This document shows positions 3,599 through 64,000 of a stretch of 64,000 nt of DNA, piece by piece. Position 1 is the stretch's first letter, and every line of letters starts with the position of its first letter. Source of the DNA: Atopobiaceae bacterium (lineage in GTDB: Bacteria; Actinomycetota; Coriobacteriia; Coriobacteriales; Atopobiaceae); assembly GCA_017545665.1 (NCBI GenBank), contig JAFWKQ010000050.1, forward strand, positions 1-64,000, in the 5' to 3' direction. The position numbers were made by a program, and so were the translations under genes. The notes beneath the pieces were generated by a model, which was not told where the DNA came from, ran no database searches, and was given only the letters and a program-made list of their open reading frames with translations.

Positions 3599-4222
3599 AT
3601 GCCCATTATGCATATACCTGGACACGACCACCAAAAGCCGCAAGAGGTGCGGCTCGAAGAGATTCGTGACGTTATGGGCAACTGTCAGCTCTGCCCCTTG
3701 GGACAAACGCGCACCAACCTCGTGTTTGGCGTGGGCAATCCCAACGCCCGCGTGATGATTGTGGGCGAGGGTCCCGGACGCAACGAGGACCTGCAGGGCG
3801 AGCCCTTCGTAGGTGCGGCAGGGAAGAACCTCGACGGGCTCTTGTCACTTGCCGGCCTTCGGCGTGATGACGTGTACATCGGCAACGTGGTAAAGTGCCG
3901 CCCTCCCAACAACCGAAATCCCAAGCCAGAAGAAATCGCAGCTTGCACGCCCTTCCTGCGCGAGCAGATTCGCTCCATATGGCCGGACGTAATCGTATGC
4001 TTGGGCAATTTTGCCGCGCACTTTGTGCTTCGCACCGAGGTTGGCATTACGAGCCTGCGTGGGCGCTTTCACCAGACGGGGCACTTTGCAGTGCTTCCCA
4101 CCTTCCATCCCGCTGCGGCAATATATCACCGAGAGTGGCAGCCCGTACTTGAGGATGACTTTCGCATGCTGGGCGCTTGGCTTGCGGAACATCCTGCCGG
4201 GCCAAACAAGGGAGGGGCATGA
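3599..4222 (+). CDS. Family 4 uracil-DNA glycosylase (Fe-S)
   Basis: Removes uracil from DNA to start base-excision repair. The 207-aa protein has the family 4 motifs GEGPGRNEDLQGEPFVG and PTFHPAA, and cysteines (CQLC near the N-terminus, VVKCRPPNNRNP and AACTPF later) placed as for the 4Fe-4S cluster. The frame is open much further upstream, but GAGGAGG at 3584-3590 sits eight bases before this ATG. The stop overlaps the tsaE start in an ATGA arrangement at 4219-4222, so the two are probably translationally coupled. Confidence 0.92.
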   Translation: MPIMHIPGHDHQKPQEVRLEEIRDVMGNCQLCPLGQTRTNLVFGVGNPNARVMIVGEGPGRNEDLQGEPFVGAAGKNLDGLLSLAGLRRDDVYIGNVVKCRPPNNRNPKPEEIAACTPFLREQIRSIWPDVIVCLGNFAAHFVLRTEVGITSLRGRFHQTGHFAVLPTFHPAAAIYHREWQPVLEDDFRMLGAWLAEHPAGPNKGGA

Positions 4223-4707
4223 TGGCCAAGGCCAAGGAGTTCGTAACGCATGCCACCTCACAGACCATAGCATTGGGCAGGCGGCTGGGGAAGCTGTTGC
4301 GCGCGGGCGACGTGGTGGTGCTCACCGGAGATTTGGGAGCCGGAAAGACGCAGTTCACCAAAGGCATCGCGGCAGGAATGGGTGTGACCGACGATGTGAC
4401 CAGTCCCACGTTTACCATTCAGATGGTTTACGAAGGCACCGACCTTCCGCTGTATCACTTCGACTTGTATAGGCTGGAGGATGCCTCGCAGCTGGACGAT
4501 ACCGGGCTGTTTGACGTGCTAGGCGATGACGGACCATGCGTCATCGAGTGGGGCGAGCAGTTCGCGGACCAAATCGGACAAGAGCGCCTTGACGTATACC
4601 TTACACGCTTGGACGAGCAGGCCGAGGCGGGCGAGGAGCCGGCGCGTTGCGTGCGCTTCGAGCCGCATGGCGAGCGAGCGTGCCAGGTCGTCTCCGCCCT
4701 CGCATAG
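4219..4707 (+). CDS. tsaE: tRNA t6A37 biosynthesis ATPase TsaE
   Basis: ATPase partner of TsaB and TsaD in making N6-threonylcarbamoyladenosine at tRNA position 37. The P-loop LTGDLGAGKTQF and the following DDVTSPTFTI motif are characteristic of the family; IEWGEQF lies near the C-terminus. The start is the first of two adjacent ATGs after GGGAGGGG and overlaps the glycosylase stop. The product is 162 aa. Its partners TsaB and TsaD are encoded as one fused protein at 7486-9924, separated from it by nagB and a beta-helix gene. Confidence 0.93.
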   Translation: MMAKAKEFVTHATSQTIALGRRLGKLLRAGDVVVLTGDLGAGKTQFTKGIAAGMGVTDDVTSPTFTIQMVYEGTDLPLYHFDLYRLEDASQLDDTGLFDVLGDDGPCVIEWGEQFADQIGQERLDVYLTRLDEQAEAGEEPARCVRFEPHGERACQVVSALA

Positions 4708-4710
4708 CCA

Positions 4711-4789
4711 AAAGTGGGCCAAAGGGGACTGTCCCCTTTGGCCCACTTTCGGCTTTGGGTACAAAGGGGACTGTCCCCTTTGTACCCAA
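4711..4789 (+). terminator. Two tandem perfect hairpins after tsaE
   Basis: Two inverted repeats in series: 4711-4728 pairs with 4732-4749 (18 bp, no mismatch), and 4755-4770 with 4774-4789 (16 bp). Both have the same AAAGGGGA stem top and CTG loop. There is no clear T run, so they may end transcription in either direction or act as processing or insulating structures. They belong to a set of similar hairpins in this window (9916, 33758). Confidence 0.6.
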
Positions 4790-4943
4790 GCGTGGCTCGA
4801 TGCTCGTAGTAAATATTGAGGAACCGCTGCCGTTCGCGGGACGGTCCGTGTAATCGCTGTGACAATTCCAACGTTTCAATGCTTCCGTGTTTTAATACTC
4901 TGGAAAACGGAATCCCCCGGAGGGAGGATTTAGGGAGCCCGTT

Positions 4944-5077
4944 AGCGCCTGGGCCAGAAATGGTTGACGAGGATGGCAGTTATCGAAAGATTCGGCGGGT
5001 GCTGCCACGGCCACATGAGGCGGTCGTCAGGGGAGAGAATAAAAAGCGGAATCAACACCGTAACAGAGGCTCTTTCC
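4944..5077 (+). ncRNA. glmS-type self-cleaving ribozyme in the nagB leader
   Basis: The leader carries the conserved core of the glmS ribozyme in order: the cleavage site A|GCGCC at 4944/4945; a short P1 closed by a GAAA loop (GGCCA/TGGTT); the invariant GTTGACGAGG at 4963-4972; the P2 stem GGCAG/CTGCC; TATCGA and TCGGCGGGTG between its strands; then P3 (CGGCC/GGTCG) and a P4 made of GGGGAGAG (5030-5037) and CTCTTTCC (5070-5077). The known class cleaves itself when it binds glucosamine-6-phosphate, and the downstream mRNA is then degraded. Here the next gene is nagB, 36 bases further on, not glmS. The joining stretch TTATCG is one T shorter than the TTTATCG I recall from characterised members. 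Confidence 0.92.
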
Positions 5078-5112
5078 GTGCCAAAAGCAAACCAAATGAA
5101 GGAGTGCATATC

Positions 5113-5904
5113 ATGCGCGTTGTTATTCAGGACAATTACGAGAAGATGAGCAAGTGGGCGGCGGACTACATCGCCAACAAGATCCGCAACCACAAGGAGG
5201 ACCGTCCGTTCGTGCTGGGGCTTCCCACCGGATCCTCTCCCCTTGGCGTGTACAAGGAGCTCGTGCGCCAGAACCAGGCCGGCGAGCTGAGCTTTGCCAA
5301 CGTGGTTACCTTCAACATGGACGAGTACGTGGGGCTCGACCACGACCACGACCAGAGCTACTGGTACTTCATGCACGACAATTTCTTTGATCACCTTACG
5401 GACATGAAGCCCGAGAACATCAACATTCTCAACGGTATGGCCGACGACCCGGAGGCCGAGTGCGCTGCCTATGAGGAGAAGATCGCCTCCTTTGGTGGCA
5501 TCGACCTGTTTATGGGTGGCATCGGTGTGGATGGCCACATTGCCTTTAACGAGCCTTACACCAGCCTCGCCTCCCGCACCGGCGTGCGTAAGCTCACCAC
5601 CGACACGCGCATCGTGAACTCCCGCTTCTTTGGTAACGATCCCGAGAAGGTTCCCGCGCTGGCGCTTTCGGTGGGCGTGGGCACCGTGTGCGACTCCAAG
5701 GAAGTCCTGGTCCTCATTAACGGCCACAGCAAGGCCCGTGCATTGGCCAAGACCGTTGAGGGCAACGTGTCGCATAAGTGGACCTGCTCCGCGCTGCAGC
5801 TGCACAACGGTGCCATTATTGCCTGCGACGAGGAGGCTTGCGGCGAGCTGACCGTAGACACCTACAAGTACTTCCTCGACATCGAGAAGGACGAGAGGCT
5901 CTAG
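5113..5904 (+). CDS. nagB: Glucosamine-6-phosphate deaminase NagB
   Basis: Interconverts glucosamine-6-P with fructose-6-P plus ammonia. The 263-aa protein has the family motifs GLPTGSSPLGVYKEL, FNMDEYVGL and GIGVDGHIAFNEP, including the catalytic Asp/His/Glu set. The frame is open upstream to 4816, but that part is the ribozyme; the ATG at 5113 follows GAAGGAG. Placement behind a GlcN6P-responsive ribozyme suggests that its product, not its substrate, shuts it off, so it may work as an ammonia-dependent GlcN6P synthase. That direction is inference; the family is reversible. A hairpin follows the stop. Confidence 0.95.
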   Translation: MRVVIQDNYEKMSKWAADYIANKIRNHKEDRPFVLGLPTGSSPLGVYKELVRQNQAGELSFANVVTFNMDEYVGLDHDHDQSYWYFMHDNFFDHLTDMKPENINILNGMADDPEAECAAYEEKIASFGGIDLFMGGIGVDGHIAFNEPYTSLASRTGVRKLTTDTRIVNSRFFGNDPEKVPALALSVGVGTVCDSKEVLVLINGHSKARALAKTVEGNVSHKWTCSALQLHNGAIIACDEEACGELTVDTYKYFLDIEKDERL

Positions 5905-5905
5905 C

Positions 5906-5935
5906 GCGTCAAAGGGACGCTCCCTTTTGATACGC
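5906..5935 (+). terminator. Hairpin terminator after nagB
   Basis: GCGTCAAAGGGA and its complement around a CGC loop begin two bases after the nagB stop, and the right arm contains a CCCTTTT stretch. It separates nagB from the beta-helix gene. Confidence 0.55.
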
Positions 5936-6094: not shown

Positions 6095-7225
6095 ATGAAT
6101 TACAGCATTGAGCAATCTATAGACGCCCTTGAGAAAAAGGGTGTAAAAATAATCGACCCAAGACAGGTCTATCTGTCTCCCGATGTTGACATCGAAAGAA
6201 TTTATCCAGGCAGTGTCCTATATCCCGGCGCACGGCTCACGGGAAGTCGCACGCTCATAGGCAGCGGCGCTAAAATCGGAACCGAGGGTCCCGCCACGGT
6301 AAACGACTCCGTGATCGGCGCGGGAGCATCCATTGCCAGCGGCTATGTTACCGAGTCCACGCTTCTTCCCCGTGCCAAGGCGGGTGGCAACTGCCATTTT
6401 CGCAACGGCACGCTGCTTGAGGAGGAAGCGAACACCGCCCACGCCGTGGGACTAAAGCAGACGATTATGATGCACGGCGTTACCATGGGCTCCCTCATCA
6501 ACTTCTGCGATGCCTTGCTTTCGGGTGGCCTTTCCCGCAAGGTTCACACCGAGGTTGGCAGCGGCTTTGTCCACTTCAACTTTACCCCTTGGGGCGAAAC
6601 CGGCGACAAGGCGACGCCTTCCCTGATCGGAACCGCTACCGAGGGCGTGTTTATCGATAAGCCACCAATCTTTTTGGGCGGCATGAGCGGTATCGTTGGG
6701 CCCAAGGAAATCGGGTTCGGCGCCATGACCATTGCCGGCCAGGTTATCCGCAGGTCGGTTCCAGACGACACCATGTATTCCGGCGATAGCCCCAGCTTTG
6801 AGAGGCCCTTCTCCTATGACAGCAGCCAGCCGTCGGAAAAGCACATCAGCCATATTCGCCAGAGCAACATCGAATACCTTGCTCAGCTGTACGCGCTCAA
6901 AGCATGGTACACGCAGGTCAGAATGAAGCGCGCCGAAATTTGCGAAGACGAGGAGCTTTTGCTGGTTTATACCGGGGCACTGGAAACGCTTGACGATTGC
7001 GTGAAGGAACGGGTTAAGAGATACGGGAGCTTTGCCTCGTCGTGGGACGCGAAGCCCTTCCACGACGCCTGCCTTGGTGAGGCTGCCCCGGTGCTCGAAG
7101 CTTCCATCGACTGGAAGCCGGAACTTGCATATGGCGAGTGGATCTGGTCCCTCTCCGAAGACGAAAAAGCCCTCCTTCACGAGTGGATCGTCTCCTGTGC
7201 AAACAAAATCAGGAACGGCCTGTAA
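6095..7225 (+). CDS. Left-handed beta-helix (hexapeptide repeat) protein, GlmU-C-like
   Basis: 376-aa protein with isoleucine/valine-patterned hexapeptide turns across about residues 30-240 (for example SVLYPGARLTGSRTLIGSG, then VIGAGASIASG and ESTLLPRAKAGGN). This is like the acyltransferase half of UDP-GlcNAc pyrophosphorylase, but there is no nucleotidyltransferase domain. The C-terminal third is helical. Proteins of this type are often annotated as UDP-N-acetylglucosamine pyrophosphorylase-related. Its position after nagB suggests an amino-sugar or UDP-sugar role, though hairpins separate them. The ATG follows GGAGTG. Exact substrate unknown. Confidence 0.7.
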   Translation: MNYSIEQSIDALEKKGVKIIDPRQVYLSPDVDIERIYPGSVLYPGARLTGSRTLIGSGAKIGTEGPATVNDSVIGAGASIASGYVTESTLLPRAKAGGNCHFRNGTLLEEEANTAHAVGLKQTIMMHGVTMGSLINFCDALLSGGLSRKVHTEVGSGFVHFNFTPWGETGDKATPSLIGTATEGVFIDKPPIFLGGMSGIVGPKEIGFGAMTIAGQVIRRSVPDDTMYSGDSPSFERPFSYDSSQPSEKHISHIRQSNIEYLAQLYALKAWYTQVRMKRAEICEDEELLLVYTGALETLDDCVKERVKRYGSFASSWDAKPFHDACLGEAAPVLEASIDWKPELAYGEWIWSLSEDEKALLHEWIVSCANKIRNGL

Positions 7226-7269: not shown

Positions 7270-7485
7270 GTCAAAACGCAAGCAAGCCGTTGCCCGTCAC
7301 GACGCGCGCCACGTCCCATGAGCGCGCGTTCGTGACATGACTTTCTGCCAAATAGCGAGGCGAGAATGGAGAAGAGAGGCGGGGCGTGTGGCAGGTTGCT
7401 CGACCGGATGCGTGGTCTTATTATTGGTTGACTTGTGATTGTTGGGGAAAGGCTTCCCGGCAGTTGCCAACAAAGGAGAAAAACG

Positions 7486-9924
7486 ATGCCCGAAACAAAA
7501 GCCAAAGTCCGGACCATCCTTGCCCTCGACACTTCTTCCGACATGCTGTGCTGTGCGGTGGCGCGAGTTGGCGGTGAGGTGGAGCTGCTGGCAAGCCGCG
7601 ATTGCGTGTGCCGCCGGCATGCCAACGAGGAGCTGGTGAGCACGTCGCTCGCGGCGCTTGCCGACGCCGGTCTTTCCATGGACAACGTGGATGCCGTGCT
7701 GGTGGGGCGTGGGCCGGGATCGTTTACGGGCGTACGCATTGGCATCGCCACCGCCAAGGGGCTCTCGTGCGGGTTGGGAAAGCCGCTCTTTGGCGTCTCT
7801 ACGCTCGATGCGACGGCATGGACGGCATGGCTTGCCGGCGTAAGAGGAACGCTCGCCGTGGCCATGGATGCCATGCGCGGCGAGGTGTATCCCGGCATCT
7901 ACGAGCTGGACGAAGACGGCGCGCATCGCACTTTTGCCACCGAGACCGTGCAAAAGGCAGATGCCTGCATAGAGCAATGGGCTTCGCGAGCGGACGCGGC
8001 TCAACTGCAAATTACGGGCAACGGTCTCTTTAAGTACGCCGATCGCTTTGAAGCGGCTGGGCTGACGAACACGATCGACAAGGGCTTGTGGTATCCCACG
8101 GGTGAGGCCCTGCTCCTTTCGTGGGATGTGGCCGAGGCACAATTGGGTGATCCTGCGCTTGTGCTGCCCGTGTATACGAGGCTTTCGGATGCGGAGGAGA
8201 ACGAGCGCAAGCGCCTGGGGCTTGCCCAGCCTGCAAGCGTCGAGGTTACCGGCGTCGCCGACGAGCTCGCGAATCTGCATCTGCAGCTTCGCCCCATGTC
8301 TATCAACGACGTAAGCCAGGTTGCGGAGCTTGAGGCACGGGCCTTCGTGGGCGGCGTGCACGAGGCTTGGTCGCGGGAGATGTTTGAGGAGGAGCTCTCG
8401 CTTCCTGGTCGGACGTGGTGGGTTGCCCATGACATGGGCACGATCGTGGGCTTTGCTGGTGGCGTGCTGGCAGGCGATGTACTGGACGTGCTCGACGTGG
8501 CCGTTGATTCCGCGCGTCGTCGCGAGGGGATTGCGAGGCGTCTCTTGCAGCGCCTGGCCTACGACGGCCATGTGCTGGGTGCGCGAGCTATGACGTTGGA
8601 GGTCGCCCAAAGCAACGACTCGGCGCTGTCCCTCTACGAGTCGATGGGCTTTGCTGAGGCCGGCGTGCGCAAAAACTATTATGGACCCAATAGCCATGCG
8701 GCAATTATGACCGTGGCGTTGCCGTTGGTTGGTGCCGCGGATGCCACGCGCCCTGATCCGCAGGCGTCCATTCGCCCATGGCCGATCGTGCCAGAACGTC
8801 GCGACGCGGCTGCGTGCGAGCGCATTGCCGCTGCTTCACCGCTCATTCTCTCCATCGAGTCGTCTTGCGATGAGACTGCCATGGCGGTAATAGACGGACA
8901 GGGACGCATCCTGTCCAACGTGGTTGCCACCCAGATCGACTTCCATGCGCGCTTTGGTGGCGTGGTGCCCGAAATCGCAAGTCGCAAGCATACCGAAGCC
9001 ATTGTCGGCGTGTTTGAGGAAGCCCTCGCGCGGGCGGGCGAGCAACTGGGTGTGGACACGTTGTCGCCGTCCGACCTCGCGGCCATAGGCGTCACGGCGG
9101 GTCCCGGCTTGGTGGGCGCCCTTGTGGTGGGCGTGGCCTTTGCCAAGGGACTATGCGGTGCCGCCAACCTGCCGCTCATTGCCGCAAACCATCTGGAAGG
9201 GCACCTCTTTGCCAATCTGTTCCAGACGCCCGACCTGGAGCCGCCCTTTGTGGCGAGCCTGGTGAGTGGCGGAAACACCATGCTGGTGCATGTGCACGCG
9301 TGGGGCGACTACGAGCTGTTGGGCGCTACCATCGACGATGCCGTTGGCGAAGCGTTTGACAAGGTCGCAAAGGCCCTTGGCCTGGGATATCCCGGGGGTC
9401 CCGTTATTAGCAAGCTCTCGGCAAAGGGTAACCCGCGCGCCATCGCCTTCCCTCGCGCCATGATGCACAGCGGGGACTATCGCTTTTCCCTTAGCGGGCT
9501 CAAGACAGCGGTTATCACCTACATCCAGGGCGAGAACAAGGCTGGGCGTGCCATAAATCTGCCGGATTTGGCGGCAAGCTTTGAGGCGGCGGTCGTGGAC
9601 GTGCAGGTGTCCAAGGCGGTTCGTGCCATAGAGGAAACCGGGGCGTCGGACTTCTGCGTGGGTGGGGGCGTGGCGGCCAACCCCAAGCTTCGGGAAGCGT
9701 ATCGCGAGGCGTTTGATCGTATGGGCGTGCGCGTAACGGTTCCTCCCCTGGCCGCATGCGGAGACAATGGCGCGATGATTGGCCTGGTGGCTTTGCGCAG
9801 CTACAATGCGGGGCAATTTGCCGGCCTTTCGCTTGATGCCGCACCCAACGCAAAGCTGGGCACATGGACCTGCGAGCTTCCTCCCACCGTCTGGTTGGGC
9901 GAACAGGATTGGCTCAAAAGCTGA
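7486..9924 (+). CDS. TsaB-RimI-TsaD triple fusion
   Basis: One 812-aa protein combines three tRNA/ribosome modification units. Residues 1 to about 240 are TsaB (ILALDTSSDMLCCAVA, GRGPGSFTGVRIG). About 265-425 is a GNAT acetyltransferase like RimI (LDVAVDSARRREGIARRLL, the acetyl-CoA loop). About 452-812 is TsaD (SIESSCDETAMAV, metal-binding histidines in HLEGHLF, SGGNTM). TsaB and TsaD normally dimerise to make t6A37 with TsaE, encoded at 4219-4707; RimI acetylates ribosomal protein S18. The fusion enforces 1:1:1 stoichiometry. The start ATG follows AAAGGAG; the frame is open slightly further upstream but without a better ribosome site. The stop codon lies inside the hairpin at 9916-9994. Confidence 0.95.
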   Translation: MPETKAKVRTILALDTSSDMLCCAVARVGGEVELLASRDCVCRRHANEELVSTSLAALADAGLSMDNVDAVLVGRGPGSFTGVRIGIATAKGLSCGLGKPLFGVSTLDATAWTAWLAGVRGTLAVAMDAMRGEVYPGIYELDEDGAHRTFATETVQKADACIEQWASRADAAQLQITGNGLFKYADRFEAAGLTNTIDKGLWYPTGEALLLSWDVAEAQLGDPALVLPVYTRLSDAEENERKRLGLAQPASVEVTGVADELANLHLQLRPMSINDVSQVAELEARAFVGGVHEAWSREMFEEELSLPGRTWWVAHDMGTIVGFAGGVLAGDVLDVLDVAVDSARRREGIARRLLQRLAYDGHVLGARAMTLEVAQSNDSALSLYESMGFAEAGVRKNYYGPNSHAAIMTVALPLVGAADATRPDPQASIRPWPIVPERRDAAACERIAAASPLILSIESSCDETAMAVIDGQGRILSNVVATQIDFHARFGGVVPEIASRKHTEAIVGVFEEALARAGEQLGVDTLSPSDLAAIGVTAGPGLVGALVVGVAFAKGLCGAANLPLIAANHLEGHLFANLFQTPDLEPPFVASLVSGGNTMLVHVHAWGDYELLGATIDDAVGEAFDKVAKALGLGYPGGPVISKLSAKGNPRAIAFPRAMMHSGDYRFSLSGLKTAVITYIQGENKAGRAINLPDLAASFEAAVVDVQVSKAVRAIEETGASDFCVGGGVAANPKLREAYREAFDRMGVRVTVPPLAACGDNGAMIGLVALRSYNAGQFAGLSLDAAPNAKLGTWTCELPPTVWLGEQDWLKS

Positions 9925-44208: not shown

Positions 44209-44246
44209 GTGACCAAAAAGTGACCACAGTAAAAGAAAGGTGACCA
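44209..44246 (+). promoter_or_regulatory. Integrase arm-type sites, left (three GTGACCA repeats)
   Basis: GTGACCA occurs at 44209, 44220 and 44240. The right end of the element has the same heptamer at 55009, 55020 and 55032. Such repeats at both ends are the usual arm-binding sites of lambda-type integrases. The third copy lies at the ribosome site of int, hinting at autoregulation. Confidence 0.6.
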
Positions 44247-44248
44247 GC

Positions 44249-45514
44249 ATGGGGACAGTCACATTCTCGCAAGGCACACTACGTAAACGCAAAATGTCAG
44301 ATGGTACATGGCAATGGCAAGCATGCATCAACGCAACAGAAGACGGCAAACGCAGACAGTTGCGTAAGAATACAGACATACCCTGCGAACCTCAGAAAAC
44401 CTCTGAAAGAGGCTCAGGGCGGCGCATACAAGCAACTGGAAAAGGAGTACGACAGGCACAAGCATTTCTCAACGAATGGCGTGCCACGCTAATAGCCGAC
44501 GAAGAAGCAAAAACAGCGACAGCGGCACAAAATGCACAGTCAGTGTTGGAATTCTGCGAAGCCTACTGGGCAACAAAAACAGACGTAGCAGACAATACAA
44601 GGAAAGAATTCCGAAAAGCAAAGAACCACATCCAACACCAACGACTCAACATAAACATCAACGATCTCAAAGCTGAGGACGTACAGGATTGGCTCGATAT
44701 CAAGACTAGCGACGGGTGCGGCAAAACAGCACTCAAAAAAGCATTCATACAGCTCAAAGCAGCATGTGCATGGGGTGTACGCATGGGTTACATCAACCGC
44801 AATCCATGCGACCCCATCACTGCGCCACGACCCGATACGAGGCCAAAGAACCCACTAGACGATGAAGCTATCGCACAACTCAATACAGCACTCAACAACC
44901 TCAGAGCAGCAAACGGCAGTATGCGCAGGTGTGTTGCAGATGCGGCAAGTCTTGCAATGCTCACAGGAATGCGCGAGGGTGAAGTCTGCGGACTATCATG
45001 GAATGACATTGATGGTGGAACAGATGGAACCATGACAGAAAACGGATACATCCACGTGCGCAACGTTATCGTAGACGCAAGTGGTGGCGCACAGCTCAAA
45101 CCATATCCGAAATCGAGGAAACACAGAGATATACCAATGAACAAGGATATTCTCAAGCTGCTCAAAGATAGGCGAGAGCTGTTCGTAGCAATAGAAGGCA
45201 ACGACCTAACAGGCTGCTATATCATCGCAAGACCCGAAACAGCCCACAAGTTCATGTCCAATGGATATCTGTGCCATCGCTGGTCAGACTTCATAGCCAT
45301 GACTGGAATCAAGGGTATGGAAGACCTAACACCTGTGTTTCACGACTTAAGGCATACTTTTGCAACTCAAGCCATAGCCCATGACGTGGATATAGTAAGC
45401 GTATCGGCAATAATGGGACATGCGTCACCGACAATTACCCTCAACATCTACGCCCGATGGACTAAAAGAGCCAAAGCAAACGCAATGGCAAAACTAGACG
45501 GTGTATTCTCATAG
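44249..45514 (+). CDS. int: Tyrosine recombinase (integrase) of the element
   Basis: 421-aa phage-type integrase that should recombine the tRNA-Phe att sites. The N-terminal arm-binding domain (TFSQGTLRKRKMSDGTWQW) is followed by a SAM-like core-binding domain (about residues 90-180) and the catalytic domain with Arg in GMREGEVCGL, HDLRHTFATQ, GHASPTITLN and the nucleophile Tyr in IYARW. The ATG at 44249 is eight bases after AAAGG. It points inward, away from attL, and converges on the R-M gene. Confidence 0.95.
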   Translation: MGTVTFSQGTLRKRKMSDGTWQWQACINATEDGKRRQLRKNTDIPCEPQKTSERGSGRRIQATGKGVRQAQAFLNEWRATLIADEEAKTATAAQNAQSVLEFCEAYWATKTDVADNTRKEFRKAKNHIQHQRLNININDLKAEDVQDWLDIKTSDGCGKTALKKAFIQLKAACAWGVRMGYINRNPCDPITAPRPDTRPKNPLDDEAIAQLNTALNNLRAANGSMRRCVADAASLAMLTGMREGEVCGLSWNDIDGGTDGTMTENGYIHVRNVIVDASGGAQLKPYPKSRKHRDIPMNKDILKLLKDRRELFVAIEGNDLTGCYIIARPETAHKFMSNGYLCHRWSDFIAMTGIKGMEDLTPVFHDLRHTFATQAIAHDVDIVSVSAIMGHASPTITLNIYARWTKRAKANAMAKLDGVFS

Positions 45515-45517
45515 CAA

Positions 45518-45543
45518 AAGACCCTGCCAGCCAGCGGGGTCTT
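45518..45543. terminator. Bidirectional hairpin between int and the R-M gene
   Basis: AAGACCC and GGGTCTT form the stem; the minus-strand side is followed by TTTTGC. It lies three bases after the int stop and 19 before the R-M stop. Confidence 0.6.
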
Positions 45544-45562
45544 ATCCCTCAACAAACAGCCG

Positions 45563-48364
45563 CTACTTACCTATCTTTTCTGCATACAACTTAAACAGAT
45601 GAGCAACGATCTTCTCCTCGTCACCATTGAACTTTACCCGATACACCCATTCAACCGCGCTATCCAACTGAGCGTGAGCTTCACGCAAATCTTGTGGCAT
45701 CAACTTCGGATCGTAGAGCTTTGCTAGTGACATATCAGGATGAGCGGCACGAGCATCAAGAACATCTTGTGCTTTACGTGCAACAACATCCTTCTGAGCG
45801 TCAGTTAGATTCTCCGGCCAAACAAAACAGTTATAGACGATGCTGTTTGTGTACTGGTAATCGTCCTTTAGTCTACCTGTAGTTCGTCTCATCCAAGCAT
45901 TATGAAATCGAGATTGCAGTACTCCGTACTGATATAAATCGGCATCAGCAATTACCCTTAGTTTATCGCTACAGAATACTTCTGGCCCAATAAAACCAAT
46001 TGGTATGTATTGCCTACGCTGTGAAGAGACTTGAGGAATTACAACTGAGCTAGTATGAGGAATAATCTCCGTTCCAAAATGCTCTGGTCTGCTCGCAGCA
46101 TCATATGTTTGTTTGCGCTTGCTGGCTAGTCTAAACTTCCTCACGTTCTCAATTCGTTCTCTACATAAAGGCAAATCAGCTAAAGATTTATCGTCAGCCT
46201 CACCAAGCCACAAACACCATCTGGTATATCCATTAATGAATTCACGCGATCCAATAAAAGGGTGAAAATACTTTTCAGCAAGAGGTTCTTTTGCTAAAAA
46301 CTCCTCTTTTTGCGCTGTAGAAAACAGGAAGTTGCCATCATCAATTGGCTGAGAGCCAATACCAATAAGAGGCACATTACAAATTGGCTTACTGCGACCG
46401 TATATAAAAACATCAGGGCCATCAGCTAAATACGCATTAATATTCTGCGCCTCTTGCATTATGCAGTCAGCATCGGGATTGGCATGATGGAAAAGCACCT
46501 TTCTGCCACCGATTTTCGAAAAGCCTACGATAACTACAAACACATGTGCTTGCTCCGTTGCCTCATTCACCCAACGAAATGTGTCATACGCAAAGTCAAT
46601 TCTCACGCCTAATTCGAAGATAGGTTTCCAAACACTAGCAACTTGCTCACCTTGACAGATTGAATTTGTAGAAACAAAGGCACACTTAATACAATAATCC
46701 TCAATATACTCCGATGCCTTTATATACCAACCAGCAACGTAATCAACATTGCCACAATTCTTCGCGCCATGAAACGCATCTATTATTTCCAACTTCTGTT
46801 CTTTAGACTGCCAACGTGCGCCATAAAACGGTGGATTACCCATAATATAATTACACTCATCAGCAGGTAATACATCATTCCAATCCATGCGCAAAGCGTT
46901 CCCATGCACGATGTTTGCAGCCTCGGTCAACGGAAAATCCTCTTTACCACTGTCATAGAACATGCTGCCCTTATCACCATTCGCCTTAAGTCTCGCGATC
47001 CAAAGCGAAGTCTCAGCCACGGTGACTGCAAAGTCATTGATCTCGATGCCATAGAACTGGTTCAGGCTCACGCGCTTGCCCTGCTCTTCATCGTCAACCA
47101 ACGCAAAGCTTACCTGCCCAGCATGCAGCTCACGCAAGATGCCATCCTCAAGCTTACGCAGCTCAAGGTACGTCTCAGTCAGAAAGTTGCCCGAACCACA
47201 AGCAGGATCGAAGAACCTCAGCGAACAGATATGCTCATGCAACTTCATCAAGGCAAACTTGCGCTTACGAGGAGTCATATCCTCATCGTTATGAATAGCA
47301 GCGTAACGGGCCTTGAGATCGTTCAGGAACAACGGATCTATGACCTTATGAATGTTCTCAGGGCTGGTGTAATGCATGCCACCAGAGCGTCTAGTCTCCG
47401 GGTTCAACGTAGACTCAAAGATGCCACCGAAAATGGTAGGACTAATATTCGACCAGTTAACACCCTGCGACATGTCCTTAAGCAAGAACGACTTCAAGTC
47501 CTCATCGAAGTTGGGGATAACCACCCTCTCACGGAACAGGCCACCATTCACGTACGGGAACGCCTTAATCTCCTCATCATACGGATCCCGCTCTGCTTTT
47601 GGTGTATCCAACGCTCTAAACAAATCAGCCAAGGCATTACGAATACGTGAAGGTGGCTCATCCTTCAAGTACTCATAGAATGCGTCGTGTTCAAACAAGT
47701 CTGCATCCTCGCAGAACAAGCAGAACACGATACGCACGCACAAGACGTTGAGGGCATGCATGGACTCAGCAGACTCAGGATCTATGTACTTGGCAGACAG
47801 ACGCTTGTACAGCTCAGCAACGAGTTTACCCGCCTCGATGGAGATCTCCTTCTCCATCTCAAGACGTGGGTTCTCAGGGTTCGTAATGAACGACAAAAGC
47901 TCAGGATGGTAATAAAGATCGTCAAGCGTAAACTCAACAGCATTATCTTTAAGCGCTACGTCCGAGAACTTCGAACGGTCATACACGCGGAACGTTACAA
48001 AGTTACATGTAATGAGATAACGTGGCTGGTCAATCTGCGTCAAGCCATATGTATAATCTAGCACCTGTTCAAGCGGAGTCTTCATCTTGCCTTGACGTGG
48101 CTCTGGCTTATCGAGATCGATGTAAGAAGACTTCTGCTCAACCATGGTCGAACAGTCACGCAGCCAAACATCACTGAACCCGCCACCATCTGGCGTATCC
48201 TCATACGTTGTGGTGTGAAGGTGGTCATAACCAAGTGCAGCCTGCAGATCCTGCCAGAACTTAGCAGTATTGCCCTTCTCACCAATTACACCACCGTTGG
48301 CCGCACGAATATCTCGCCAACGCTTCACGAACTCCTTAACCTGCCAATACTTGACCTGTGCCAT
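45563..48364 (-). CDS. Type IIG restriction-modification enzyme, MmeI-like
   Basis: 933-aa single-chain enzyme expected to cut DNA beside its target and protect it by adenine methylation. The N-terminal nuclease has the D...ExK set (FSDVWL then MVEQKSSYIDLD). A helical spacer leads to a gamma-class N6-adenine methyltransferase with motif I FFDPACGSGNFL and motif IV NYIMGNPPF. The last 300 residues form the target recognition and C-terminal helical parts. Order and length match MmeI (about 920 aa). The ATG at 48364 follows GGAG eight bases earlier. It is the only evident cargo gene and a probable phage defence. The recognition sequence cannot be read from the protein. Confidence 0.9.
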   Translation of the reverse strand: MAQVKYWQVKEFVKRWRDIRAANGGVIGEKGNTAKFWQDLQAALGYDHLHTTTYEDTPDGGGFSDVWLRDCSTMVEQKSSYIDLDKPEPRQGKMKTPLEQVLDYTYGLTQIDQPRYLITCNFVTFRVYDRSKFSDVALKDNAVEFTLDDLYYHPELLSFITNPENPRLEMEKEISIEAGKLVAELYKRLSAKYIDPESAESMHALNVLCVRIVFCLFCEDADLFEHDAFYEYLKDEPPSRIRNALADLFRALDTPKAERDPYDEEIKAFPYVNGGLFRERVVIPNFDEDLKSFLLKDMSQGVNWSNISPTIFGGIFESTLNPETRRSGGMHYTSPENIHKVIDPLFLNDLKARYAAIHNDEDMTPRKRKFALMKLHEHICSLRFFDPACGSGNFLTETYLELRKLEDGILRELHAGQVSFALVDDEEQGKRVSLNQFYGIEINDFAVTVAETSLWIARLKANGDKGSMFYDSGKEDFPLTEAANIVHGNALRMDWNDVLPADECNYIMGNPPFYGARWQSKEQKLEIIDAFHGAKNCGNVDYVAGWYIKASEYIEDYCIKCAFVSTNSICQGEQVASVWKPIFELGVRIDFAYDTFRWVNEATEQAHVFVVIVGFSKIGGRKVLFHHANPDADCIMQEAQNINAYLADGPDVFIYGRSKPICNVPLIGIGSQPIDDGNFLFSTAQKEEFLAKEPLAEKYFHPFIGSREFINGYTRWCLWLGEADDKSLADLPLCRERIENVRKFRLASKRKQTYDAASRPEHFGTEIIPHTSSVVIPQVSSQRRQYIPIGFIGPEVFCSDKLRVIADADLYQYGVLQSRFHNAWMRRTTGRLKDDYQYTNSIVYNCFVWPENLTDAQKDVVARKAQDVLDARAAHPDMSLAKLYDPKLMPQDLREAHAQLDSAVEWVYRVKFNGDEEKIVAHLFKLYAEKIGK

Positions 48365-48441
48365 CCTCAATGCTCCTATACACCCAACGCAACCCTGCTA
48401 ACTATATTCTGACAACATAAGACGCAACGTCAAATACCTGT

Positions 48442-55579: not shown

Positions 55580-55688
55580 CGTTCGTACCACCACGCCTGG
55601 GCCGGTCCGCGCGCGGTGACTCGCGTAGTGAGCGAGCGAAGTGAGCGCGGAGCCGCACGCGGCAGTCCCAGGCGAGGCGGTGCGAACG
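55580..55688. repeat. Dispersed intergenic repeat, copy 3
   Basis: The core (GACTCGCGTAGTGAGCGAGC, then GAAGTGAGCGCGGAGCCGC, 55617-55656) lies between arms starting CGTTCGTACC (55580) and ending GGTGCGAACG (55688), which pair over about 22 bases with a few mismatches. The arms are unrelated in sequence to those of copy 2. It lies in the divergent gap between acyP and the hydrolase gene. Confidence 0.7.
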
Positions 55689-55823
55689 TGGAGCCACATA
55701 CGGAGCGCGAACGGTTGTAACCATCCTCTCATATCCTTGCTTTTCGTGTTCTTGAAAGACAAAGAGCATTTGGCGCGTACAATATGCATGGTACAAACCA
55801 AACGTTGGCGTCGAGGAGAGGCC

Positions 55824-57716
55824 ATGGATTGCACACGAAGGAACTTTGTTGTAGCCGCGTCGGCGGCATTGCTGGGTCTGGCGTCCTGCGCGCGTACGGA
55901 AGAGCAGTCTTCGCAGGCAGCGCCTCCTCCACAGGAGAGTTCGGTTGAGGAGCCTAAGGTAGACCTCAAAGAGTTTGAGAAGCTCGAGCTCGACATGAAG
56001 GCATGGAAGCACGATGAGAAAAACGACGTGTATTATCAGCTGGGGGTGCCGTATTGCCTAAAGCCCGCTTCGAATACCTATGAGAGCCTGGCGATCTTTG
56101 TTCCAGGCGCTTACCTTAAGCCTGTTGACGACAGCAAAAAACCTTTGTACCAAATAAACGAGAGCGCCACGGTGGGAAAGTTCACTCCCAAAACTGCTCC
56201 GGTGGTTATGCCCATAAATTCGGGCAACTTTGGTCCTCAGGCAAGCCCCGCGGCATACAGCTATACGGGCCTTGGCGCCTATCTTAATGCTGGTTGCGTA
56301 TACGTGTATGCGGGAATGAGAGGGCGCAGTTCTGGATTCGAAAGCACTGGCAGCGAGGTGTACTCGGGCGGAGATCCATGGCCGGTAGTGGACCTTAAGG
56401 CTGCCGTCCGCTTCGTGCGCTATAACGCAGAGGTCCTGCCCTGTGACACCAACCGGATTTTTACTTTTGGCTTTAGCTTTGGCGGCGGCGTAAGCGCTCT
56501 TATGGGTTGCACGGGCGATTCCAAACTGTATACGCCATATATGGAGCAGATAGGCGCGGCCACTCATGACGCAAAGGGAACCACGCTCTCCGACGCCGTG
56601 TTTGGCTCGGCGTCTTGGTGTCCCATCACCTCGTTCGACACGGCAGACGCGTCATATGAGTGGATGATGGGGCAGTACTCCGAAGGCGCCACGCGAGCGA
56701 AAGACGTTTGGACCAAGCTCCTTTCCAACGACCTCGCTCAGGCCTATGCGCACTATGTTAACGAAATGGACCTGCGCGATAAGGAAGACCACGCGCTCGT
56801 GCTCGACGAGACTTCTGGCGATTTCTATGCCGACGGAAGCTATTACGCGTATATGCTCGACTGCATTCAGGAGTCAGCGAATACGTTCTTCTCGAGTACC
56901 CAATTCCCCTATACCTATACGCCTCAGCATCTGGTGAACGGCAATTTCCCTGGGGATCCCAATCTGCAGAGCATGGGTGCTGGCGCATCGGATGTGGAGG
57001 CAGTTACGGGAGATGCGTCCGCTCAGGCTGCGGGAGTGGCCGGCAAAGAGGAGAAGGTCGACGGAAAGACGAACGTTCAGTCGATCGTGTACAACACCGA
57101 CGAGGACTACATAAACGATTTGAACGGCGACGTTCAGTGGCTTACCTACAACCAGACGCGCTCGACGGTACGCATCTCGAGCATAGCGGACTTCGTGCGC
57201 CACGCTAAGCCTGCGGCAAAGGACGTGTGTGCCTTCGATGCGCCGGATCGTTCGACGGTGGTAAACCAGCTCTTTGGTACCAACGAGATAAGCTCGCTTC
57301 ACTTCAGCAAGGTGGTGAGCGACCAAGTTTCGGGCAACAGAGAGACCTATGCCAAGGCAAAGGGGTGGAACAGTTCGTATGTAAAAGACTGGCCCGAGGA
57401 TCTTGCCCAGGTAGATTCCTTAAAAACAGACATGGCCACGAGGATGAACATGTTCAATCCCCTCTATTTCCTGAGCGGCCGCTATGAGGGCTACGGCACC
57501 GCAACGGTGGCAAAGCACTGGCGTATTAACTCGGGGCTTTTCCAAACCGATACGTCCCTTTGCACCGAAATGAACCTTGCCTTGGCACTTGGCCATTACG
57601 ATGGCATATCGAGCGTGTCGTTTACTCCGGTTTGGGGACAAGGACATACGCTTGCGGAGGTGTCGGGTAGCGCCGAGGAAAACCTCCTGGCCTGGATAGC
57701 CGAGTGCTGTAAATAG
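55824..57716 (+). CDS. Secreted alpha/beta hydrolase lipoprotein, subtype B tannase-like
   Basis: 630-aa protein with a twin-arginine-type signal (MDCTRRNFVVAASAALLG) and the lipobox LASC, so probably a Tat-exported lipoprotein. The nucleophile elbow is GFSFGGGVS. The segments VPYCLKPASNTYESLAIFVP and YVYAGMRGRSS resemble subtype B tannases and related esterases that split gallate or other aryl esters. A large lid region separates the Ser motif from the C-terminal GQGHTLAEV, which supplies the histidine. GAGGAGAGG precedes the ATG. Substrate unproven. Confidence 0.7.
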   Translation: MDCTRRNFVVAASAALLGLASCARTEEQSSQAAPPPQESSVEEPKVDLKEFEKLELDMKAWKHDEKNDVYYQLGVPYCLKPASNTYESLAIFVPGAYLKPVDDSKKPLYQINESATVGKFTPKTAPVVMPINSGNFGPQASPAAYSYTGLGAYLNAGCVYVYAGMRGRSSGFESTGSEVYSGGDPWPVVDLKAAVRFVRYNAEVLPCDTNRIFTFGFSFGGGVSALMGCTGDSKLYTPYMEQIGAATHDAKGTTLSDAVFGSASWCPITSFDTADASYEWMMGQYSEGATRAKDVWTKLLSNDLAQAYAHYVNEMDLRDKEDHALVLDETSGDFYADGSYYAYMLDCIQESANTFFSSTQFPYTYTPQHLVNGNFPGDPNLQSMGAGASDVEAVTGDASAQAAGVAGKEEKVDGKTNVQSIVYNTDEDYINDLNGDVQWLTYNQTRSTVRISSIADFVRHAKPAAKDVCAFDAPDRSTVVNQLFGTNEISSLHFSKVVSDQVSGNRETYAKAKGWNSSYVKDWPEDLAQVDSLKTDMATRMNMFNPLYFLSGRYEGYGTATVAKHWRINSGLFQTDTSLCTEMNLALALGHYDGISSVSFTPVWGQGHTLAEVSGSAEENLLAWIAECCK

Positions 57717-61249: not shown

Positions 61250-64000
61250 CTATCCCTGCAGTCTTTTCCAGTCGCTCGCGGATCCGTAGAAGACGTTGCA
61301 GTCAAAGTATTCGCAGCCACCGTTGCGAGACAGGACGCCAGTGGAGGTGTATTGGTGAATGGTGGGATAGGTTCCCCACGCTCCCCATTTCCTGCTGGAT
61401 TGCCACGGGTTGCTCTGGTAGCCGTACACGTCGTCGTAGTCTGGATACTCTGCTCCCCACAGCGGATAACTGCTGGCTACGGTAGACCAGTTATAGGCAT
61501 TGGTATAGCTCTTGCTCGTATAGAGAAGAGGGGTGCCGCCAAAGCGTAGCTTGAGCCTGTCGAGGAACTTCTTGCACCAAGCAACGTCTTTTCCGGTGTC
61601 GAACAGCTTGTTGCCAGCTCCCTCCCAGTCCAGGCAGGCAATGGCACGGCCTTTGTAGTCCTTGATGGCGTTGTAGAAGGAGTCTGCCTCTGCTATGGCG
61701 TCGCCACCATTGGCATAGTGATAGAAGCCTATGAGACGCCCTGTGCTCAGCGCCTGTTCGGCCATGAGCTTATAACGCGTGTTATAGATAGTGCCTTGTA
61801 CGCCTTCGGTAGCCTTGATGATGAAGAAATCGCCTTCGACCTCGGAAAGACGTAGGGTCCTGGCGCTCGAGCCGTTGCCCCAGTCGTGTCCAGATACGTC
61901 TACGCCGTAGAGCTGGCGTGAGTAAAAGTAAGGAACGCTGACGGAACCGGGGGCACTCGAGCCCTTTGCCACGACCTTAACCTGATAGGCCTCAATGGGG
62001 TATGCTGCGGAGTCCGCTCCGGCGCTGGCGCCGTTCTTGGCCCAGCCCAGCCAGCCTTTGTTTGCGCAGTGAGCGCGATACCATACGTCATACAGGGAGG
62101 TGGCGCTACCGGTGAGCTCAAAGCGAATGGCAGTAATCTTTTTACCGCTCTGACCGGCATTATTACCATCGTATGCCCAGCTCTGCCACTTGCCTGCGTC
62201 GCTGGAAACCGCATAGCGAATGCCTGCGCCAGATGCACCAGAGAGCGTTGCGTTAATGAAATCGATTCGGCCTGACTTGCCGGTGGTGCCACCCGTATCG
62301 CCGTTGCTCCTGTTGCCGAGCCAGCCGCCGCCAACGGCGTGCGTGTTATAGGTGACCGACAGATTGCCCAAATACGGCATGGGATAAGAGCCGGAGCTGG
62401 AGGGCGCCGTTCCATTACGCGGCACAAGCATGATTTGGAGGGCTTCCATGCGCCAGCCACGTCCGCTTGAACCGCATAGGTCGCCATCTTTTGCCCAGGC
62501 CATCCAACCAATATTTTGCACGTGAGTACGATAGTAGACGCTGTACTGGTCTTTCGCTTTGCCAGTGAGCTCGATTTGCATTGCCTCTACGCGCAGGCCC
62601 TTGCCGCTTGTGCCCGCCATCGCACCGTTTGACACCCAATTCTGCCAGCCGATGTTTTGCACGTGCATGCGATATCGGACGCCGCCGTCGATGCCCATGG
62701 TGGCAATGTGGATTGCCTCTATGCGCAGGCCCTTACCGCTCGTACCTGCCAATGCGCCGTTGGTTACCTCGTTTTGCCAACCGATGTTTTGCACATGGGC
62801 CTGGTATCGTATTCCAGGACCACCAGATACGATGCTGTGATACGTGCTGCCGCTGGTGCCGTTAGACGGAGGCGCCTCGCCTTTGCGCACGAGTACGACC
62901 TCTACGGCTTCCACGCGCAATCCCTTGCCCGAAGTGCCGGCAATCTGGCCATTCTTCTTCCATGCCTGCCAGCCGATATTCTGCACGTGTCCACGGTAGT
63001 AGATGTCGTGAGTGTTTGCGATGTTTCCGGTAAGCCTCAGCTTAATGGCCTCAACGCGCAGGCCCTTGCCGCTCGTGCCCGCCATCGTGTCGCTTCCGAC
63101 CTCGTCTTGCCAACCGATGTTTTGTACGTGCGCCTGGCAGCGGATGTCGCCACTCGCATTCTTAAGGCGGAAGTAAAAGCCCTCAACGCGCAGTCCCTTG
63201 CCGGAAGTGCCGCCAAGCTCACCGTCCTTGACCCATCTCTGCCAACCGATGTTTTGCACGTGGGTGCGATACTCCACGGAGGGCGTTGCAGCCTCTGCCT
63301 GCAACGCATCGGAAGACTCGCTGCTGCTTGATGCGACTGGCTTTTTGTCTTCCGTGGCGTTTGAGGGCTGATCCGCGTCGTTGGATTGGGCTACGACTGC
63401 CACAGAAGGGTCTGCCTTCGTCTCTGCTGAGTCGGTTGCTTCGTCCTGCTTTGAGTCGGTTGCATCCTCGGCAATCGTGCCAACAGTAGGCTTGTCGCCC
63501 TTTTTGGTAAGGAGTACCTCAATATCGCATAGAGCTGCAAGCTCGCTCGATTGCAGCTCCTTACCGTTGTGAACCCAGCCAAGCCAAGTGCCATCCGCGT
63601 TCATCGCGCGATACCAAAGATCGTACTTGTCTATGGCTTCGTCGGGAAGATGCAGCTGTATGCCCGTAATCCCACCTTCGCTTGTGGCGGCATTTGGGGT
63701 AGCTGTCCACGTTTCCTGCCACGCGCCCAACAGGTTGCGCACGCGATAGGTGGTGTTGCCAAGCACCTCGTCGTCGCATTTAAGCTCGATTGCGTCAAAA
63801 GCGGTCGCGGGAGAGGGCTCACTCTTGGTCGCGTTGGCCTCTTTGTTCTTCCCGGCTCCTTCAAGAGCCTTTTGATGCGAGTCGAAAGAGGCCCAACCCT
63901 CATCGTTTGCCCACTGCTCGGCATCAAGCGCATGCGTTCTAAACCAAACTACGGGCAAAGATGCCTGCTGCGGCTCGCTTGCCTGACCATCTTGCTTCTC
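61250..64000 (-). CDS. GH25 lysozyme with ChW-type repeats (5' end outside window)
   Basis: At least 916 codons; the frame is still open at the window edge, so the signal peptide is not seen. The C-terminal 215 residues are a GH25 muramidase (YGVDVSGHDWG, and ACLDWEG with the D-x-E pair), which cuts peptidoglycan. Before it stand about nine to eleven repeats of the clostridial hydrophobic (ChW) type, each about 45 residues with G-W and a G-x-SGKG-x-R-x-E core. Five in a row share HVQNIGWQ almost unchanged and a sixth has HVQNIGWM. An Asp/Glu/Ser-rich segment lies further upstream. A secreted autolysin or surface lysin is likely. Confidence 0.9.
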   Translation of the reverse strand, partial: EKQDGQASEPQQASLPVVWFRTHALDAEQWANDEGWASFDSHQKALEGAGKNKEANATKSEPSPATAFDAIELKCDDEVLGNTTYRVRNLLGAWQETWTATPNAATSEGGITGIQLHLPDEAIDKYDLWYRAMNADGTWLGWVHNGKELQSSELAALCDIEVLLTKKGDKPTVGTIAEDATDSKQDEATDSAETKADPSVAVVAQSNDADQPSNATEDKKPVASSSSESSDALQAEAATPSVEYRTHVQNIGWQRWVKDGELGGTSGKGLRVEGFYFRLKNASGDIRCQAHVQNIGWQDEVGSDTMAGTSGKGLRVEAIKLRLTGNIANTHDIYYRGHVQNIGWQAWKKNGQIAGTSGKGLRVEAVEVVLVRKGEAPPSNGTSGSTYHSIVSGGPGIRYQAHVQNIGWQNEVTNGALAGTSGKGLRIEAIHIATMGIDGGVRYRMHVQNIGWQNWVSNGAMAGTSGKGLRVEAMQIELTGKAKDQYSVYYRTHVQNIGWMAWAKDGDLCGSSGRGWRMEALQIMLVPRNGTAPSSSGSYPMPYLGNLSVTYNTHAVGGGWLGNRSNGDTGGTTGKSGRIDFINATLSGASGAGIRYAVSSDAGKWQSWAYDGNNAGQSGKKITAIRFELTGSATSLYDVWYRAHCANKGWLGWAKNGASAGADSAAYPIEAYQVKVVAKGSSAPGSVSVPYFYSRQLYGVDVSGHDWGNGSSARTLRLSEVEGDFFIIKATEGVQGTIYNTRYKLMAEQALSTGRLIGFYHYANGGDAIAEADSFYNAIKDYKGRAIACLDWEGAGNKLFDTGKDVAWCKKFLDRLKLRFGGTPLLYTSKSYTNAYNWSTVASSYPLWGAEYPDYDDVYGYQSNPWQSSRKWGAWGTYPTIHQYTSTGVLSRNGGCEYFDCNVFYGSASDWKRLQG

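Follow-up and report, generated by a model that had tools for sequence, protein, structure and literature searches.

The 5′ leader of nagB in the window, the whole 64,000-nucleotide stretch of Atopobiaceae DNA that we analysed, contains a self-cleaving glmS ribozyme, and ribozymes of the same family head nagB in other Atopobiaceae and in rumen and gut Clostridia. We consider it likely that this leader gives product feedback on an anabolic, ammonia-aminating clade of NagB whose operon came from rumen clostridia. The glmS ribozyme has so far been described as a one-gene feedback switch. If our reading is true, a single metabolite-sensing ribozyme would control two distinct enzymes that make one product, the routine 'deaminase' annotation would be reversed across a whole NagB clade, ammonia would have an entry into rumen cell-wall synthesis, and drugs aimed at the glmS ribozyme would have a target list longer than glmS. 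The original prediction knew of no described pairing of this ribozyme with nagB, and the literature that we searched likewise makes no mention of one; the McCown surveys of 2011 and 2012 lie outside that search, and priority is not certain.

The glmS ribozyme in the nagB leader

A full-length match to the Rfam glmS model RF00234 (model positions 1–167) was located by cmscan at 4933–5086 on the forward strand, with a score of 68.5 bits against a GA of 37 (E = 1.2e-13), and it is the only RF00234 match in the whole 3.74-Mb genome. The match lies directly 5′ of nagB and forms the leader of this gene rather than of glmS, an association outside the definition of the RNA itself. Cleavage is predicted between A4944 and G4945 within GTTA/GCGCC, and the core blocks GTTGACGAGGA, TTATCGA, TTCGGCGG, AAAAAGC and AACAGAG are present as placed by the original prediction, whose claim of a glmS ribozyme at the head of nagB is confirmed by the Rfam search that it had called for. 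Its span of 4944–5112 was right in the cleavage site and the blocks, while the RF00234 element begins 11 nt earlier and stops 26 nt earlier. The ribozyme fills the nagB leader and leaves the ribosome binding site free: a Shine-Dalgarno-like AAGGAG, read from the sequence at 5099–5104 (forward strand), is outside the ribozyme and precedes the ATG at 5113. Between tsaE and the ribozyme, no sigma-70-like promoter was found above chance. The same interval holds an adjacent palindrome pair (4703–4789), each with CAAAGGGGACTGTCCCCTTTG, where none is expected by chance; a similar palindrome lies 3′ of nagB at about 5907–5930, and together these look like a repeated intergenic element.

The core and the cleavage site A/GCGCC are invariant across 34 nagB-linked ribozymes. 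In their P1–P4 helices, 93.9% of cells are paired and 22 of 34 pairs have changed on both sides (0 of 500 shuffles); double-changed cells number 158, where shuffles gave 43.7 and slid controls no more than 34. Additionally, the pseudoknot between loop and 3′ end covaries, with own partners more complementary than in all 5000 permutations. These patterns indicate that the nagB-linked ribozyme RNA is under selection. It is true that nagB-type ribozymes score 24–73 bits with the Rfam model, against 80–110 bits for most clostridial glmS ribozymes, which would suit an RNA that is dead or whose cleavage does not silence the gene, for instance by stabilising or freeing the message. The invariant core and the compensatory helix changes in the 34 sequences, together with a Shine-Dalgarno element outside the ribozyme, speak against this reading and make it highly improbable.

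The gene behind the leader (5113–5904, forward strand) encodes a 263-aa protein of the glucosamine-6-phosphate deaminase family, which TIGR00502, the tree and PDB 3hn6 place among the long enzymes of the E. coli/Vibrio branch. Specifically, it scores 383.8 bits with TIGR00502, above the equivalog cut-off of 236.9, and the closest PDB structure is Borrelia NagB (3hn6, 328 bits). The next gene (6095–7225, forward strand) encodes a 376-aa GlmU left-handed-beta-helix-like protein, which matches GlmU models over 239–434 (E from 3e-14 to 9e-17) and PDB GlmU at E = 4e-9. We did not accept this protein as the missing acetyltransferase of the operon, since the catalytic His of GlmU is not conserved in the alignment. 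Its best relatives, 77–78% identical, are in the Lachnospiraceae genomes G173 and G177, two Clostridia for which the search for glmS gave nothing. Farther along, the window contains a tyrosine recombinase adjoining an MmeI-type restriction-modification gene (44240–48370), possibly a defence or integrative element, a subtype A tannase (55641–57716, 773 bits), and a glycosyl hydrolase 25 that carries seven ChW repeats, of the secreted cell-wall hydrolase type (61250–63958).

Recurrence of the ribozyme and operon content

Within Atopobiaceae, 23 of 140 genomes, belonging to two genera, carry 24 RF00234 ribozymes, 13 before nagB and 11 before glmS; nagB is the first gene 3′ of the ribozyme in all 13 nagB loci. 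Both targets stand in tandem in G134, as ribozyme-glmS-ribozyme-nagB. Five genomes (G064, G075, G131, G132 and G133) have the order ribozyme-glmS-acpS-nnrD-alr-udg-tsaE without nagB, and the close relative G076 has glmS-acpS-nnrD-alr-udg-tsaE-ribozyme-nagB-ORF-tsaBD. The latter order is likely shared by the genome of the window (G000), in a comparison that crosses a contig gap, as the window begins just 5′ of acpS. By synteny, the old gene order was glmS-acpS-nnrD-alr-udg-tsaE-tsaBD, and the ribozyme, nagB and the 6095 gene were inserted between tsaE (4219–4707, forward strand; TIGR00150, with synteny to the same five genomes) and the tsaB-rimI-tsaD fusion (7483–9924, forward strand; TIGR03725, TIGR01575 and TIGR03723, with synteny). 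The product of this fusion combines TsaB, RimI and TsaD in a single 813-aa protein, which together with the gene order points to a coriobacterial host.

In the ribozyme tree, the nagB-linked and the coriobacterial glmS ribozymes form one set (support 99), separate from nearly all clostridial glmS ribozymes. The tree, whose root is not fixed, and the tandem of G134 suggest that an imported nagB leader was the template from which the glmS leader of the coriobacteria was copied, the direction of copying being our inference.

For Clostridia, the search model was built from the Atopobiaceae ribozymes. NagB relatives were sampled as the best 80 in named genomes, almost all of them MAGs of rumen or gut Clostridia and up to 91% identical, and 38 of the 80 have a ribozyme on the same strand upstream of nagB or the nagB operon. 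This ribozyme is the sole RF00234 match in 37 of the 38 genomes, while G163 has another in front of glmS. Two less biased draws of genomes by clostridial order gave nagB-type operons at 6 of 17 matches among 297 genomes (three of the six already known, with the order picked around one) and at about 7 of 80 matches among 392 genomes (three already known). The remaining matches in both draws were mostly before glmS, and in the first draw five had no assigned target: three weak matches, a match at the end of a contig and an orphan. A glmS ribozyme elsewhere (L208, on contig C53 of G389) lies 3′ of an acetyltransferase-glmM pair and has no recognisable target gene downstream. With more than 50 loci and the covariation described above, we reject a chance match or an assembly artefact.

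The typical clostridial operon is ribozyme-nagB-acetyltransferase-glmM. nagB comes first after the ribozyme in 30 of the 38 loci, and the neighbours of the 38 genes include glmM in 30, the acetyltransferase in 28, glmS in 4, glmR in 2 and nagA in none; glmS and glmM share the ribozyme-nagB operon in G162, G169 and G152. The acetyltransferase is a 220-aa left-handed helix protein that matches a C-terminal domain, both that of archaeal GlmU (E = 1.4e-40) and that of the solved enzymes 5z09 and 2ggo; its active-site His is kept in PH..YVGDS. The operon GlmM scores 537 bits with TIGR01455. With this gene content, the operon would therefore encode the enzymes from fructose-6-phosphate to GlcN6P, if NagB aminates, from GlcN6P to GlcN1P, and from GlcN1P to GlcNAc1P. 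Bifunctional GlmU is absent from most of these clostridial genomes, several of which have a 250-aa uridyltransferase-only form, and this scarcity fits a stand-alone acetyltransferase; it also makes GlmU unusable as a completeness control. In G000, GlmU (L273 2041–3054, contig C74) stops at 338 aa, short of the acetyltransferase active site, with prs directly after it.

A recognisable glmS was not found in 11 of 50 clostridial genomes, a figure that MAG incompleteness could explain and that we do not take as proof of replacement: among these 50, 7 have the completeness marker alaS scoring below its own threshold. Seven genomes combine the ribozyme-nagB arrangement with no detected glmS (G142, G147, G148, G167, G173, G174 and G177), with alaS above cut-off in six of them. 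A wider proposal, which we offer tentatively and would not yet favour, is that a NagB-family enzyme serves as a second, glutamine-independent bacterial GlcN6P synthase, wholly replacing GlmS in some rumen bacteria and marked by an operon that a glmS ribozyme controls and that also holds glmM and the gene of a stand-alone GlcN1P acetyltransferase.

In G000 itself, such replacement is not supported. The original prediction had NagB taking over the role of GlmS, yet the genome keeps glmS on contig C34, with at least 574 aligned residues running into the contig end. No ribozyme was detectable in the 8.5 kb 5′ of this glmS, so the idea of a ribozyme on both genes was rejected and the nagB copy is the only one. 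nagA is present only on contig C68, far from nagB, and a test of nagA adjacency found no nagA-nagB catabolic operon. Thus only half of the combination that the prediction had named as contrary, a normal glmS together with such an operon, exists here. Because G000 and most related genomes keep GlmS, the necessity of NagB is not proven.

NagB types, phylogeny and direction of the reaction

Two kinds of NagB occur in Atopobiaceae. Genomes with ribozyme-glmS have a 245-aa B. subtilis-type NagB, while those with ribozyme-nagB mostly have the 263-aa kind only; both occur together only in G070 and G071. The 245-aa nagB adjoins nagA in G131, G135, G137, G070, G071 and G072. In the 263-aa clade, the catalytic residues Asp72, Asp141, His143 and Glu148 are invariant. 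Arg158 and Lys160 of E. coli NagB, which we take to be residues of the site for its allosteric activator GlcNAc6P, give way to Gly and Arg, respectively, in all 90 sequences, and the clade thus departs from the E. coli-type allosteric site. Such a loss would be in keeping with an enzyme whose tuning to GlcNAc breakdown has gone, but the change is found in clade members without a ribozyme as well.

In the NagB tree, the coriobacterial 263-aa type forms one cluster, with one long-branch clostridial row inside, nested in clostridial NagBs. Since this cluster nests in clostridial ones and four coriobacterial relatives (G134, G128, G066 and G136) keep the full ribozyme-nagB-acetyltransferase-glmM operon, a single acquisition from rumen clostridia is probable, the module having passed by horizontal transfer to a coriobacterium-like lineage. 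The window operon has neither glmM nor the conserved acetyltransferase, and by this comparison it is one that, after the transfer, lost both and gained the 6095–7225 gene, so that another GlmU-like helix protein now follows nagB.

We propose the following mechanism. When GlcN6P is plentiful, the ribozyme would cut its own mRNA and nagB expression would be lowered; in Bacillus, RNase J finishes the cleaved mRNA. GlcN6P triggers the cut of the glmS ribozyme, and the message is then degraded (PMC11477304). The NagB clade would aminate fructose-6-phosphate with free ammonia to GlcN6P, which would feed GlmM and GlcN1P acetylation towards UDP-GlcNAc. A ribozyme before nagB then makes sense, because with an anabolic NagB it would give ordinary end-product feedback. 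This ammonia-dependent route would stand beside the glutamine-dependent GlmS, much as glutamate dehydrogenase stands beside GS/GOGAT, and would spare glutamine. The rumen is rich in ammonia, which such a route would suit. The original prediction held that its logic works only if NagB forms GlcN6P, and the linkage to glmM and a GlmU-type acetyltransferase, the lack of linkage to nagA and the separate B. subtilis-type nagB in relatives all point in this direction.

Against the aminating reading, the clade has the same catalytic residues as ordinary deaminases, and direction is not readable from sequence. The NagB reaction is reversible, and Giardia NagB 'efficiently catalyzes' GlcN6P synthesis with a KM for NH4Cl of about 20 mM (PMC4281351), whereas Akkermansia NagB shows no amination at physiological conditions (PMC5902328). 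As the one enzyme aminates and the other cannot, the direction of NagB is a matter for measurement. In one alternative, NagB still works as a normal deaminase of catabolism, and the ribozyme, a hitch-hiker, first regulated a glmM/glmS operon that later received nagB, its effect on nagB being tolerated or slightly harmful. The unchanged catalytic residues, the retention of GlmS, the nagA of G000 and the joint operons with glmS and glmM in G162, G169 and G152 all agree with this. Nevertheless, it would have the wrong sign for catabolism, because the off-switch would be triggered by the enzyme's own substrate; nagB comes first after the ribozyme in most clostridial and all Atopobiaceae loci, the arrangement has been retained across many genomes and past a horizontal transfer, and the nagA-linked nagB of Atopobiaceae is a separate type. 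We therefore regard hitch-hiking as unlikely.

The window NagB may serve GlcNAc breakdown too, because G000 has nagA and no second NagB. Here, reversibility would allow a two-way valve near the equilibrium of GlcN6P and fructose-6-phosphate, filling the pool at high ammonia and otherwise draining it, with one enzyme for both needs and the ribozyme only capping enzyme amount at full pool. A drain that is shut off when the pool is full would be a poor valve, and about 21 of the 38 clostridial ribozyme-nagB genomes have an absent or doubtful nagA; we find this version quite unlikely. Feedback on an aminating NagB thus remains our preferred reading.

Comparison with known systems

The nagB ribozyme shares with the B. 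subtilis glmS ribozyme (RF00234) the core, the cleavage site, the P1–P4 architecture, the position in the 5′ leader and the expected ligand GlcN6P. It differs from glmS ribozymes before glmS in its target, which is nagB and often a nagB-acetyltransferase-glmM operon, and in forming its own sequence cluster apart from the clostridial glmS ribozymes. The stand-alone acetyltransferase of this operon corresponds to one domain of GlmU and of the archaeal dual sugar-1-phosphate nucleotidylyltransferase (5z09, 2ggo), with the active-site His but without the uridyltransferase domain.

Among NagB enzymes, the window clade has the long form, the C-terminal Tyr254 region and the catalytic residues of the allosteric hexameric enzymes of E. 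coli, Vibrio and Borrelia, but differs from them in positions 158 and 160, in lying with glmM and the acetyltransferase gene rather than with nagA, and in the ribozyme leader. Type B of Atopobiaceae, the B. subtilis-type NagB of 245 aa, belongs to the same enzyme family and has the same reaction, but is shorter, about 40% identical or less to the 263-aa clade, adjacent to nagA in several genomes and free of a ribozyme. The anabolic NagB of Giardia lamblia has the NagB fold and makes GlcN6P from fructose-6-phosphate and ammonia, as we propose for the window clade; it is a eukaryotic enzyme that forms monomers, dimers and tetramers, has no ribozyme, and is likened to the window clade by function, not by tree.
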